From Blastocladiella britannica (taxonomy: Eukaryota; Blastocladiomycota; Blastocladiomycetes; Blastocladiales; Blastocladiaceae): 26,381 nt of DNA. The position numbers and the translations under genes were made by a program. The stretch lies in contig MU624750.1 of assembly GCA_025349905.2 (NCBI GenBank), positions 1 to 26,381 of the forward strand, given 5' to 3'. This document shows, piece after piece, positions 17,160-22,290 of this stretch; the first letter of the stretch is position 1, and the number at the start of each line of letters is the position of its first letter. A model generated the notes under the pieces. It was not told where the DNA came from and ran no database searches. It was given only the letters and a program-made list of their open reading frames with translations.

Positions 17160-19250
17160 ATGACAACCACCGCAACCCTGCCCGGGCTGCCGCTCGAGCT
17201 GATCTTGGCTATCCTGGACCACCTGGCAGCCATCAGTACCGTTCCGCATGAAGTTCTCGCGACCACTGCCCTGGACTGGACTGCTCTCAAAAATCCCATT
17301 CGCCAACGAAGTGACTTGATCGCAGTGCTGGGCCCCATTGCGCGAACTTGCTCAGCGCTGCTTTTTGTGTGCCGGGCGCAAGTGCGCGATCACCGGCACG
17401 CACATGTAAGGCTCAGTGTTGGCATGTCGCCTCGATCTGCATCGTCCGAGGAAATCGTCCCGGGTTCCTTTGAATCGCCGGATTCGTCATTTTTCTTGGC
17501 AGAGTCGTCGCCGTGGGAGTACCAATTTGTACCGGGCACGTGCGCGGCCGAGTACACGAGGGACGCGATCGTTCCTGAGGGTCAAGATGGAGTCGATTGG
17601 CCACCGAGACCACGATCGCTGGCACTCTACCTGCACCTGACCGCGCCGTACGGTGCGCCGCCGATGCCGCCGCCCACCGACGATGATCTGGACGAACTTC
17701 CAACGTCGCCCACATCTCCCCTTGGCGAGTCGCGATTGTCGGCAGCACCCGTCGCTCGCCCCGACCCGCCCTTACGTCTCTCGAGTGTTGTGCCGGTTCT
17801 CACGCCGCTCGGCCACAACTTGAGCGCGCTCTTGCTGGGATTCCCTGCGACATTACCGGCCGCAGCACTGACCGCGCTTCCGGCCGTTTTGCGACCCCTT
17901 CTCGAACCCAGTGGACAAGGCCCCCCACAGTTACACTCGCTGACGATCCGGCTCGCGCCTGACTCCAAACCGGCCGTACAGACCATGGCGCTGACCGCCG
18001 CATGTGCGTTCCTTTCGGGAGGGTCGGTGCGGCGGCTCGCGGTGTCCATGGTTGCGACCGAGGTCGGGGTTGGGTGGGGCGGCACTGATGTGGCGCACGC
18101 GCTTGTAACGGGGACGGCCGCAGTTCCGAAAGGGCTGCGCTCTATCACGCACTTGGAACTGACGTGGCCCGCGGTGGCTCGCGCTGCGGTACGGAAGTTG
18201 CTGGGGGCAACGGGGGCCGAGCACGTGGCGATTCGGGTCGCACACTGGACCGCTGCTGCAAATGCGGACCAGCCGCCCGAGAATGCAACTGTGCTTCCGG
18301 TACGCGACCTGCGGATCCTGACCCAGCCGCGGTCCGCTTCGCCTTCCGTGCTGCACTTGGCCAGCCTACAGCACCTCGAGCACCTGATGGTGGTCATGAA
18401 CCGGGTGCCAATGCGAGCCATCGGTGTCGATGAGAATGTGGGCGACGACGCGTTTCTCGGCGCCATCTCCCGCGACACGTGGTCACTGCCGCGAGCCGTC
18501 ACGCTCATGTGGCCAGCATCAGCGCCGTCATCATCGACTCGCCTGTCCTGTGTCGGTGGTTTCGGCGGCCCTCCCGCGGCGTACGCGACCGCCACGCTTG
18601 CGCAACTCCGCAATTCATCTTCCGATGAGGCAGAGGGTATCCAGGAACTGGCGCTGTCGCGGTTACCCGAGTTGTCGTACCTCCAACTCCCGCCCGCGCC
18701 CTGCCTGGTCCTGCATTTGGGTGACTCGGTCCGCGAGGCCCCCGCGCTGGTGGCATCCGCCCGCATCGCGCGGTGCGTGTGGATCTTGGACGATCCGGTT
18801 TGGGGGCATCGGCGGAGCAGTCTCATCAACAACAACAACCATGCGCTTGTCGACGACTTTCTGGGAGGCAGCGGGTCGTCCACAGCCACACCTCCGTGGT
18901 TTGTCGATCTCTTGCTGGACAACCCGCGACTTTCCCGGCTCGTGGTGGTCTCGTTCGCCGGCGGGGCGCATTGTGGGATCTCGGCATGGGTCGGTGGTGC
19001 CAGACACCAAGGTACCACCCATGGGGGGTGGATCTATGAGCCCCAAAAGAAGATTGGAAAGGCCATGTATACGGTGCGGTACGGCGCAGGGTGGCCGAGC
19101 CGCTGGATCACTGCTTCTGATCCTCATGACAAGGAGCAGAATGACCAGCCCTGGCGACTTCCATGGGCGGTGCTCGCACTCAATCTCGCTGAGCGCGGTA
19201 CCCGAACCGGCTGGTCCGTGGTCATTGAGCGCCTTCCATTGCCAATATAA
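17160..19250 (+). CDS. F-box-like protein of unknown substrate
   Basis: Single-exon gene of 696 aa, starting 56 bp after the TFG-like stop. The N-terminus LPGLPLELILAILDHLAA (about residues 8-25) is an F-box-like opening, the part that would bind Skp1 in an SCF ubiquitin ligase. The rest has leucine-rich, irregularly spaced segments (LRSITHLELTW, VLHLASLQHLEHLMVVMN, LPELSYLQLPPAPCLVLHLG) that could be degenerate leucine-rich repeats, as in many fungal F-box proteins. A Pro/Ser/Asp-rich linker lies near residues 160-205. No substrate can be proposed. There is a long overlapping open frame on the other strand, which I take as a shadow of GC-rich coding sequence. The start ATG at 17160 has context GATTAAATGACA, and the frame gives the F-box directly. 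Confidence 0.68.
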   Translation: MTTTATLPGLPLELILAILDHLAAISTVPHEVLATTALDWTALKNPIRQRSDLIAVLGPIARTCSALLFVCRAQVRDHRHAHVRLSVGMSPRSASSEEIVPGSFESPDSSFFLAESSPWEYQFVPGTCAAEYTRDAIVPEGQDGVDWPPRPRSLALYLHLTAPYGAPPMPPPTDDDLDELPTSPTSPLGESRLSAAPVARPDPPLRLSSVVPVLTPLGHNLSALLLGFPATLPAAALTALPAVLRPLLEPSGQGPPQLHSLTIRLAPDSKPAVQTMALTAACAFLSGGSVRRLAVSMVATEVGVGWGGTDVAHALVTGTAAVPKGLRSITHLELTWPAVARAAVRKLLGATGAEHVAIRVAHWTAAANADQPPENATVLPVRDLRILTQPRSASPSVLHLASLQHLEHLMVVMNRVPMRAIGVDENVGDDAFLGAISRDTWSLPRAVTLMWPASAPSSSTRLSCVGGFGGPPAAYATATLAQLRNSSSDEAEGIQELALSRLPELSYLQLPPAPCLVLHLGDSVREAPALVASARIARCVWILDDPVWGHRRSSLINNNNHALVDDFLGGSGSSTATPPWFVDLLLDNPRLSRLVVVSFAGGAHCGISAWVGGARHQGTTHGGWIYEPQKKIGKAMYTVRYGAGWPSRWITASDPHDKEQNDQPWRLPWAVLALNLAERGTRTGWSVVIERLPLPI

Positions 19251-19303
19251 AAGAACAGAAGAGAAAAAATGTGATTTTGGTTTGAAAATTTGAGGGAAAG
19301 GAA

Positions 19304-19438
19304 TTAATTGCGGGCACGCTTGCGATCGGGATCGTCTTGGGTCGGCGACCGCGCGCGGCGCTTCACGGCCGGACTGGCAGTGGTGACAGTTGCATCAGAG
19401 GTAGAAGAAATGGGATCCACCTCCATGTCATCTAGTCA
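19304..19438 (-). other. Candidate stop-codon readthrough extension of the peroxiredoxin
   Basis: Directly after the peroxiredoxin UGA (19438-19436) the same frame continues for 43 codons to a UAA at 19306-19304. The stop context is UGA CUA G, the motif known to promote readthrough in several mammalian genes and in fungal glycolytic enzymes. The extension begins LDDMEVDPISS, is Ser/Thr-rich in the middle, and ends KRRARSPTQDDPDRKRARN, which resembles a bipartite nuclear localisation signal with an SP phosphosite. Its base composition stays GC-rich and coding-like up to the UAA and becomes AT-rich straight afterwards, unlike a normal 3' UTR here. Readthrough would give a 243-aa form. The motif and frame are seen; readthrough and nuclear targeting are inference. 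Confidence 0.6.
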
Positions 19439-20170
19439 GGCGTTGGTCTTCTCAAAGTACTCCTTGGCCTTGACGGGGTCCGGGATCAGACCGGTCTTGC
19501 GCTCGGACGCCTTGAAGTTGGCGGGGCAGACTTGTAATTATTTTTTTTTGGAGAAGTGAGTTGAAGATGAGATGCATAAACAATAAAATGGCATACCCTC
19601 GCCGTGCTTGTCCGAGAACTGGAAGGCCTCGAGCAGGCGGATCGTCTCGTCGACCGAGCGGCCCACGGGCGTGTCGTTGATGGTGAGCGACCGCACGGTG
19701 CCTTCGGGGCCAATGATGTAGGTCGCGCGGAGCGGGTGGCCCTCGCCCTCAATCAGGCACCCGTACTCCTTGGCCAGGTGCATGCTGCGATCGGCTACCA
19801 GCGGCAGCTTGAAGTTGGGGCCGAGCCCACCCTGCTTGCGCGGCATGTTGGCCCAGGCCAGGTGGCTGTACTCCGAGTCGCACGAGACGCCAAGCACCTC
19901 GGCGCCAAGAGCCTTGAACTTGTCGTACGCGTCCGAGAACGCCAGCAGCTCGGTCGGGCACACGAACGTGAAGTCGAGCGGGTAGAACAGAAGGATCACC
20001 CACTGGCCGGCATAGTCCGACAGCGACTTGGTCGCAATGGTGCCGTTGGGCAGGACGGTCGGGGCGGTGAAGGCCGGGGCTTGCTTGCGGACGAGGCCTT
20101 TTTCCCGTTTTGCGTTGTTAGCTGGATACAAATGCAAGGTTGATCTCTTTATAAAAGAGGACGTACTCAT
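19436..20170 (-). CDS. TSA1: Typical 2-Cys peroxiredoxin (thioredoxin peroxidase)
   Basis: Reduces hydrogen peroxide and organic peroxides using thioredoxin. Three exons: 20170-20167 (just ATG A), 20097-19597 and 19530-19436. The first intron (20098-20166, 69 nt) is in frame and stop-free, so it is easy to miss; it has donor GTACGT, a CTAAC branch site and acceptor AAAAAG, and its removal gives MSLVRKQAPAFTAP, the normal family N-terminus. The second intron is 66 nt (19531-19596; donor GTATGC, acceptor TTACAAG). The product is 199 aa, as usual. The peroxidatic Cys48 lies in FVCPTE and the resolving Cys170 in EVCPANF. GGLG and the C-terminal KEYF are both present, the pair linked to sensitivity to over-oxidation. 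The UGA stop at 19436-19438 is followed by CUA G and a further open frame. It is divergent from SF3B2. Confidence 0.95.
20098..20166 (-). other. In-frame, stop-free intron splitting the peroxiredoxin start region
   Basis: The 69-nt segment lies four bases after the ATG. It starts GTACGT, has CTAAC 24 nt before the exon and ends AAAAAG. If translated it would insert 23 residues (beginning TSSFIKRS) that no peroxiredoxin has. Splicing is therefore strongly preferred, although a retained form would carry a basic, hydrophobic leader. Confidence 0.82.
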
Positions 20171-20380: not shown

Positions 20381-22290
20381 ATGCCCGCAACGACGACGAC
20401 GGTGGTACGCGCTATTCATTCTGTCAGCTCAGCTCGCAGACGTTGGTACTAACCATATATTGTATACAGAACGGATCGGCCCCCAAGGCGGCCGCGCCCA
20501 AGCGAGCACGGCGCAAGCCAAAGAAAAAGGTAGTAGCGACTGAAAAGGCTGCGGCCGCCCCAGGAGTGCGACTGGAAGAAGACGATACTGAGGGTGTTGA
20601 CATTGACTATGTGCCCGCAGCCCCCGTTCTCGACGACGTGAGCGACGCCGACCCAGCCTTGGCCGAGTACTTTGGCTCGGTCTTTGCCAAATTCGAGGCC
20701 ACCGACGCGCCCGCTCGTACCGTCGAAACCAACCTGGCCGACGGTGAAGCGGATAATGACGCTGATCGTCCGGCCGAGGAGGATCGCGGATCAGACTCGG
20801 ACTCGGATTCTGACGCTGAGGACGTCGGTCCAAACGCGCCATTGAGTAACCGCAAGCTCAAGAAAGCAGCGCGTCTCTCAGTGGCCGAGCTCAAGCAGCT
20901 CGTGGACAAGCCCGAAATTGTGGAGGTGCGTTTCCAATTTTTCCCTGGGCGGCCTTATTCGTGTATTGACGAATAAAAAAAATGAGAGTAGTGGGTCGAT
21001 GTGACCGCGCCCGACCCAAAACTGCTGGTGGACCTGAAAGGCACGCGCAACACCGTGCCCGTCCCGCTGCACTGGTCGCTCAAGCGCAAGTACCTGCAAA
21101 ACAAGCGTGGACTGGAAAAGGAGCCGTTCCGCTTGCCCGAATTTATTTTGGCCACGGGTATCTTGGAGATGCGCGAGGCGGTTGGCGCCAAAGAGGACGG
21201 GTCGTCGCTCAAGTCGCGCACACGGGAGCGCACGCAGCCCAAGATGGGCAAGCTGGTGATTGACTATGCCAAGCTGCACTCGGCGTTCTTCAAGTGGCAG
21301 ACCAAGCCGCCGCTGACGGGATACGGCGACATGTACTACGAGGGCCGCGAGTTTGAGGCCCGGGTGCGGCACATTCGGCCGGGAGGCGAGCTGACGTCGG
21401 CGTTGCGCGAGGCCCTGGGGATGCCGCCCGTGAGCCAGTACACCCCGCCCGTCCCGCCGCCGTTCCTGATCCACATGCAGCGCCACGGCCCGCCGCCGTC
21501 GTACCCGGGCCTTAAGGTCCCCGGCCTCAACGCGCCGATCCCGCCGGGCGCCGTGTGGGGCTTCCACCCGGGCGGCTGGGGTCGTCCGCCCGTCGACGAG
21601 TACGGCCGCCCGCTCTTTGGCGACGTGTACGGTCCTGCTCCCGGCGACGATCCGATGGCGCTGTACCGGGACGCAGTTGCGGCTGCCAAGAGCGTGCGGT
21701 GGGGCGAGATTGCCCAACCGCAGGGCGACGAGTCCAATGACGAGGATGAGGACGGTGATGACGACGACGAGGATGCCGATCGCATTTCGGGCGGAGAAGA
21801 GGAAGAAGTTACTGAGGTAGCAGCAGCAGCACCAAGGAACAAGAGCGGCGGTGGTGGCGGCGACATGCCCCTTCAGTTCCTGGGGGATGCGGCCGATCCG
21901 ACCGACGAGGACCTGGAGGCATTCGCCGCCAATCTCGGTGCGCCATCGTCACGCGGCGGTCGCCCAGGCCCTCAGATTGGCGCGGGCGACGGCATCGTGA
22001 CGGAAACGCCGCAGCCACCGCGCGAGCTGTACACGGTGGTGGGAGAGCGGTCGGCTACGGGCCAAGCACGATCGGCCGGCACGCTGCTGGGGTCGGACCG
22101 CGTGTACGATGTCCGCAAGCGCGCGGCGCCCGGGATTGAGACCGAGACGCCGCTGCCGCCCGGAGCCGTTGGTGCAGGTGATGGTGGTAACGATGATGGG
22201 ACTGCAACGGCACGCAAGCGGCGCCGGGTTGACGACTCTCGTGCCAGTGCCGGGTCGAGCAGCAAGTCGTCGCGCAACTTCAAGTTCTGA
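20381..22290 (+). CDS. SF3B2: Splicing factor 3B subunit 2 (SF3B2/SAP145/Cus1)
   Basis: U2 snRNP protein that contacts pre-mRNA near the branch site. Three exons: 20381-20404, 20470-20925 and 20992-22290. The first donor is GTACGC at 20405 (an alternative at 20402 removes one codon), acceptor TATACAG, 65 nt; the second intron is 66 nt (20926-20991; donor GTGCGT, acceptor GAGTAG). The product is 592 aa. The basic and acidic N-terminal part is followed by the SF3B2 core: NRKLKKAARLSVAELKQLV, DVTAPDPKLLVDLKGTRNTV, VPLHWSLKRKYLQNKRGLEK, KMGKLVIDYAKLHSAFFKWQ, GDMYYEGREFEARV. The proline-rich PSP block follows (PPPSYPGLKVPGLNAPIPPG, GGWGRPPVDEYGRPLFGDVY). The C-terminal third is acidic and Gly-rich and ends with a KRRR patch. 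Human SF3B2 is about 895 aa; the shorter N-terminus here explains the difference. Confidence 0.95.

Follow-up and report, generated by a model that had tools for sequence, protein, structure and literature searches.

A peroxiredoxin gene of Blastocladiella britannica with a candidate type II readthrough cassette that may add an NLS-like tail

The window analysed here, a stretch of 26,381 nucleotides at positions 1 to 26,381 of contig MU624750.1 (C211 among the 624 contigs of the 15.26 Mb Blastocladiella britannica genome that we searched), carries an ordinary typical 2-Cys peroxiredoxin gene. The gene and everything described downstream of it lie on the minus strand. Exon 1 contributes only ATGA (20170-20167) and is followed by a 69-nt intron (20166-20098) with a CTAAC branch-like site and an AAAAAG acceptor. 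Exon 2 (20097-19597), as placed by alignment and Pfam, holds the peroxidatic Cys motif FVCPT and the GGLG motif. Intron 2 (19596-19531; 66 nt, phase 1) is indicated both by intron scoring and by the same junction in the database gene model P0002, and exon 3 (19530-19439), placed by alignment, leads from the resolving Cys (VCPANF) through the YF motif to ...KEYFEKTNA. The spliced product has 199 residues, MSLVRKQAPAF...KEYFEKTNA, and the start obtained by removing intron 1 resembles the N-terminus of the aligned Blastocladiomycota relatives, for example MSSLIRKPAPAF. P0002 (222 aa) retains this apparent intron (20166-20098, minus strand) and hence has a different start. On the plus strand, a computed 696-aa ORF without a Pfam match (17160-19250) is convergent with the peroxiredoxin, 53 bases separating its stop from the second stop of the extension described below, and an ORF with DUF382 and PSP domains (21001-22290), which we take to be SF3B2-like, is divergent from it.

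The assignment to the typical 2-Cys peroxiredoxins (Prx1/AhpC subfamily) is based on the AhpC-TSA domain, the peroxidatic FVCPT and the C-terminal resolving VCP; Pfam matches to AhpC-TSA and 1-cysPrx_C lie above cut-off on P0002. In the database it is matched best by a B. britannica entry that bears the name "natural killer cell enhancing factor", and 31 PDB sequences match at E up to 1e-60. Both motifs linked to over-oxidation sensitivity, GGLG and KEYF, are present, the Gly-Gly-Leu-Gly and Tyr-Phe columns being invariant in all 9 aligned sequences. The protein thus shares with PRDX1, PRDX4 and the tryparedoxin peroxidases the catalytic and resolving Cys, GGLG, YF and the position of its end, and differs from them in no notable respect except the putative extension. 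The genome also encodes a second 2-Cys peroxiredoxin (L001, C27:45597-46407), which by eye has a presequence-like N-terminal region and several introns, one of them at the same position as intron 2 of the gene in the window. This paralogue ends in YFSKHA TGA TCC, without a UGA CUA context.

The stop codon of the window peroxiredoxin is a UGA (19438-19436) directly after ...AKEYFEKTNA, and it is followed by CUA GAU. A preliminary description of the locus had placed it where 2-Cys peroxiredoxins usually end (KEYFEKTNA), and this is borne out by the C-termini of 8 aligned relatives, 5 of them from Blastocladiomycota, all of which lie within 2 residues of the UGA position; we therefore read the UGA as the normal end of the gene and not as an error. 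The 5 Blastocladiomycota proteins stop there as annotated, and annotation would not reveal readthrough. A basidiomycete peroxiredoxin (P0076) was omitted from this alignment; its annotated protein continues for about 30 residues beyond the YF motif with a tail unlike the B. britannica extension.

Together with the following CUA G, the UGA forms the core of a published high-readthrough motif (19438-19432; PMC4207609, PMC12233894), as the preliminary description had also recognized. Passages of PMC4207609 state that termination is weak at UGA CUA (G) and that UGA CUA suffices for readthrough in the fungus Ustilago. The readthrough levels given in the published excerpts are 1.5-2.9% for UGA CUA alone and 17% in one human gene with more distal elements. 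Upstream of the UGA the peroxiredoxin has AC at -9 and -8, whereas the most favourable published context has AA.

This heptanucleotide is rare in B. britannica. TGACTAG occurs 193 times in the genome (98 and 95 by strand), against 1445 times (717 and 728) for the reversed word, which makes it about 7.5-fold rarer, and, if TGAs are as dense throughout the genome as in a 226-kb sample, about 5 of every 10,000 TGAs lie within it. Counting both strands of those 226 kb, CTA follows TGA at 26 of 5681 sites and CTAG at 2, the peroxiredoxin site included. The tetranucleotide CTAG is itself scarce, with 224 occurrences in 452,762 bases (both strands together). We examined 82 of the 193 TGACTAG sites, namely 80 that were fetched, the peroxiredoxin site and one in bulk sequence. 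At 4 of the 82 the word is preceded by an open frame of 20 codons or more whose codon choice is coding-like, and among these four a marked hairpin (see below) is found only at the peroxiredoxin. We also considered an organism-wide use of UGA CUA of the peroxisomal type; it is not seen in the GAPDH gene, the PGK gene and two Ldh_1_C (malate/lactate dehydrogenase) genes of the same genome, which belong to classes with known readthrough, carry no UGA CUA and end in TAA or TGA ATC; this counts against readthrough.

Past the UGA, the frame stays open for 43 more codons (19435-19307) and closes at a UAA (19306-19304), exactly as first described. The length of this open frame is uninformative as evidence: at least 43 open codons follow the stop at 40 of 84 ORF ends, a control set (84 or 85 by count) of computed coding-like ORFs rather than annotated genes, among which intron-caused stops will be present. 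Such a figure is what one would expect if the UGA were an ordinary stop, leaking at most at a basal level, and the open frame, the hairpin and the basic tail had arisen incidentally in a 3' UTR of partly high GC content and served no selected function. We regard this account as a serious possibility, and one that we would sooner doubt than accept.

The composition of the extension changes along its length. The first 21 codons have 49% GC and a GC3 of 43%, and their synonymous-codon score of -0.30, compared with a shuffle mean of -0.26, is equally low in only 3.3% of 1885 coding pieces. The last 22 codons have 73% GC and a GC3 of 77%, and score +0.45, a value modestly above shuffles (reached by 3% of them, P 0.03) and close to those of other frames over the same patch (0.33 and 0.42, the latter in one antisense frame). 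For the synonymous choice of all 43 codons, 22% of shuffles do equally well; the codon log-odds of the whole extension amount to 0.15 bits per codon, against a median of 0.12 in coding pieces, and 10 of 2000 dinucleotide shuffles reach 0.15. Codon usage thus gives a faint indication that the second half of the extension is coding and none that the first half is, a pattern that ordinary termination would accommodate. The earlier statement that a GC-rich, coding-like composition runs up to the UAA holds for the sharp fall in GC after that codon and fails for the first 21 codons. Searches for relatives favour ordinary termination as well. A first word-based protein database search with the extension gave 15 candidates, none of which scored at E up to 10, and a second gave no candidate with three shared words; since a hit in either search depends on identical words, distant relatives could have escaped. 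Within the 15.26 Mb genome the stretch occurs once, and the idea that it is a copy of another gene's tail was dropped, no second copy having been found.

The best change point in codon usage falls at codon 21 (permutation P 0.011), with an equally strong rise in 21 of 904 coding pieces. The division into 21 and 22 codons was set after a possible splice acceptor had been seen at this place, and the change-point test was then run without fixing the split. That acceptor belongs to a candidate alternative intron of 87 nt (19460-19374; donor GGA/GTACTTT within the EYF codons, acceptor CTGCCAG/T), which is the best-scoring intron that removes the UGA and keeps the frame. Kept in the normal message and removed in a minor one, it would delete EYFEKTNA together with the UGA and join ...VKAK-D in frame to PAVKRRARSPTQDDPDRKRARN, so that the isoform would lose the over-oxidation-linked YF tail and gain the basic tail. 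At 8.5 bits its donor, GGAGTACTTT, is better than the median donor of the training set (7.9), its in-frame acceptor CTGCCAG has a CTGAT branch-like site 22 nt upstream, and the passage from non-coding-like to coding-like codons coincides with the acceptor. The total score of 13.5, however, exceeds that of only 1 of 40 computed introns (leave-one-out range 8.0-53.5, median 26.8), and the interior score of -0.9 lies under those of all 40 training introns (lowest 2.6), a comparison that is partly circular because these introns were chosen for AT-rich interiors. Moreover, coding sequence yields equally good pseudo-introns at a rate of roughly one per kb (118 in 122,901 bases), and the donor is presumably a by-product of how EYF is spelled. 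The reference introns are computed rather than annotated, 40 of 49 candidates having been kept by length and AT content; they have donors like GTACGT or GTATGT and CTGAC- or TTGAC-like branch sites, and AAG and GAG acceptors are under-scored because YAG acceptors were required. A splice that skips the UGA had been named at the outset as an event that would overturn readthrough; judged by intron scoring, the one at 19460-19374 is weak but possible, and we consider it decidedly unlikely to be the explanation.

Splicing might also reach the extension by another route, in which the donor of intron 2 is used with the acceptor CTGACTAG/AT (19596 to 19432), exon 3 and the resolving Cys are skipped, and the message continues in frame into the extension. 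Frame and phase fit such a junction, and CTGAC, found in 11 of the 40 computed introns, is their most frequent branch-like motif. Nevertheless, the intron scores 5.2, and its CTGAC lies 5 nt from the AG end, whereas every one of the 22 training introns whose branch motif is strong has it at a distance of at least 14 nt, and we give this form very little credence. The two forms of splicing, taken jointly, make an unlikely but not negligible account of the locus.

Downstream of the UGA, the RNA is predicted to fold into a hairpin with a 12-bp stem (one bulge) and a 10-nt loop (19427-19393), whose inner stem would begin after a spacer of 8 nt (19435-19428). Outer pairs extend it, in the prediction, to a 56-nt structure (19438-19383) of -20.3 kcal/mol with a z of -3.45, equalled by 0 of 200 shuffles, the ends of this piece having been chosen after a wider fold. 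Wider folds are weaker (a 69-nt piece, z -1.78, 9 of 200 shuffles; a 142-nt piece, z -2.47, 3 of 200), and in the second half of the extension structure is not beyond chance (z 0.94). The hairpin was noticed after the fact, the preliminary description making no mention of it. As a control, the same nine sub-windows were tried at every location, a procedure in which the best z at the peroxiredoxin is -3.48. This value is matched by 0 of 84 ORF ends, 2 of 198 coding windows and 4 of 200 random windows, and by 17 of 700 GC-matched windows, 8 of the 700 being also as stable. It is matched by 0 of the 25 other TGACTA sites in 226 kb and by 3 of 81 other TGACTAG sites, none of these three at a coding-like end. 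A position-specific energy test, with spacings of 6-12 nt, finds equal or greater stability in 23 of 500 GC-matched windows and 18 of 84 ORF ends. Overall, these controls suggest a predicted hairpin that is unusual but not exceptional, equalled, according to the test used, by some 1-5% of GC-matched windows; because control windows and ORF ends also reach its values, we take it as suggestive and not decisive. A repeat or mobile-element origin of the hairpin was rejected, since it occurs once in the genome.

The hairpin matters on account of its position. In type II readthrough signals, according to passages of PMC3542737, the UGA is followed by CGG or CUA and often by a stem-loop about 8 nt after the stop, a distance also given as 6-12 nt past the stop (PMC11166343), and the predicted 12-bp stem would start at such a distance, after 8 nt. 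The peroxiredoxin would thus have in common with the viral type II signals both the UGA CUA and the stem about 8 nt on. It differs from them, as these sources describe them, in being a cellular fungal gene with a short predicted stem that is moderately likely by chance.

A classical bipartite NLS consists of two basic residues, a spacer of 10-12 residues and then at least 3 of 5 basic residues. The extension ends in KRRARSPTQDDPDRKRARN (19363-19307), which agrees with this pattern, and the earlier description of a bipartite-NLS-like tail is accurate in that sense; import itself is what we infer from the pattern. Of 3000 random open stretches of 43 codons, 134 contain a bipartite-like pattern of this kind, a frequency that ordinary termination can draw upon; the pattern is present at 1 of 85 ORF ends. 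Bipartite and monopartite patterns occur together in 18 of 3000 random open stretches and at 0 of 85 ORF ends. The tail contains 8 K/R residues, and at least 8 are found in 374 of 14,497 open shuffles; by these counts chance seldom yields a basic tail of this kind, which favours readthrough. Readthrough extensions with working NLSs have been described in Drosophila and Arabidopsis (PMC3840789, PMC9293766), and the fly authors argue that functional signals are often present in random peptides (PMC3840789). Gain of an NLS through readthrough in these organisms, as for example with CURT1B, is what we propose for the peroxiredoxin; those cases are backed by ribosome profiling and localization assays (PMC3840789, PMC9293766), whereas ours is built on sequence alone. 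The B. britannica genome also encodes a member of the redoxin family whose long N-terminal region is rich in Lys, Asp and Glu (L005, C76:39319-39660). Since this protein is possibly, by our own reading, a Dot5/PrxQ-like nuclear enzyme, a separate nuclear peroxiredoxin may already exist.

Two other readings concern translation of the same message. Some peroxiredoxins elsewhere are selenoproteins, and selenocysteine use has been reported for a few early-diverging fungi, both of which lend some appeal to the UGA as a selenocysteine codon. Against this, a search of 18900-19700 on both strands with Rfam at E up to 10 gave no SECIS match, its one weak match being to mir-341. Of 1503 first-look candidates, 53 were scored; the one tRNA-Sec candidate reported has 40 bits against a gathering score of 47, and in ARAGORN it comes out as tRNA-Arg. 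Having turned up neither a SECIS match nor a convincing tRNA-Sec among those 53, we disfavour selenocysteine, which is barely credible here, and the relevant passage of PMC4207609 states that fungi lack the selenocysteine machinery. Alternatively, ribosomes might terminate and reinitiate at an in-frame ATG at extension codon 4, which has G at -3 and G at +4, and translate a separate small ORF into a 40-residue peptide. Reinitiation after an ORF as long as 199 codons is generally inefficient, however, and no relatives of the 40-residue peptide were found in a word-based protein search, so that we hold this scenario to be highly improbable. Even combined, selenocysteine and reinitiation have a very small share in our assessment.

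The single account that in our judgement best explains these features is programmed readthrough, with a nuclear-tagged peroxiredoxin as its minor product; we hold it tentatively and at not quite even chances. The main product would remain the normal 199-residue typical 2-Cys peroxiredoxin, terminated at the UGA, and a minority of ribosomes would probably read the UGA by near-cognate decoding. The CUA G context and the RNA hairpin 8 nt downstream, in a type II readthrough architecture, may aid this decoding. Readthrough would add 43 residues, and one more at the UGA itself, and the longer protein would end in the bipartite-like basic signal, which could bring the peroxiredoxin into the nucleus. 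Readthrough and its level, like the import and any role of the longer form, are what we infer; the gene, its stop, the motif, the predicted hairpin, the open frame and the tail are there to be read.

What speaks against ordinary termination is that three features coincide at this stop: a leaky context that is rare in the genome, a hairpin spaced 8 nt from the UGA, and an end resembling an NLS. Multiplying the measured rates by an assumed 8000 genes, about 1.7 genes ending in UGACUAG would be expected by chance. The number of these that would in addition possess a hairpin of this sort and an open frame of 43 codons or more is about 0.02-0.04 with the GC-matched hairpin rates and about 0.17 with the ORF-end hairpin rate of 18/84; these figures overstate the case because the features were picked after looking. 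We see in this locus a real and uncommon sequence arrangement, and put forward, with somewhat less than even confidence, that it is a type II readthrough cassette through which a peroxiredoxin acquires an NLS-like tail.

The mechanism is of a known kind, and the peroxiredoxin is a new candidate case of it. In Ustilago Tpi1, Rpe1 and Art1 and in human LDHB and MDH1, as passages of PMC4207609 describe, UGA CUA (G) stands on an enzyme gene and is followed by an in-frame targeting extension, and likewise in the peroxiredoxin. The known UGA CUA (G) extensions described there carry a peroxisomal signal, whereas that of the peroxiredoxin would carry a nuclear one and is accompanied by a predicted hairpin. 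A literature search on peroxiredoxin and stop codon readthrough, fungi included, returned no study on peroxiredoxin readthrough among the titles and abstract openings.

A further possibility concerns regulation. In passages of PMC4207609, ribosomal prolyl hydroxylation is reported to influence termination where a C follows the stop. The B. britannica genome encodes an Ofd1/Tpa1/OGFOD1-type prolyl hydroxylase homologue (L034, C292:4102-4890; Ofd1_CTDD, E 2.8e-63), and because a homologue of this type is present, oxygen control is conceivable, and no more than that. In its fullest form the proposal would be that a minor nuclear form of the peroxiredoxin is made from a compact cellular type II cassette, the UGA CUA G and its 8-nt-spaced hairpin, whose output is set by oxygen via uS12 hydroxylation; we consider this full scenario quite improbable.

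If readthrough were set by oxygen in this manner, nuclear peroxide scavenging would track oxygen supply without new transcription. If readthrough itself is real, functional UGA CUA G readthrough would extend to an early-diverging fungal phylum, with a target that is nuclear and not peroxisomal. A motif-plus-hairpin layout best known from viruses would then be in use by a cellular gene, and B. britannica would provide one species' example of a single gene that supplies a nuclear form of a peroxide-scavenging enzyme.
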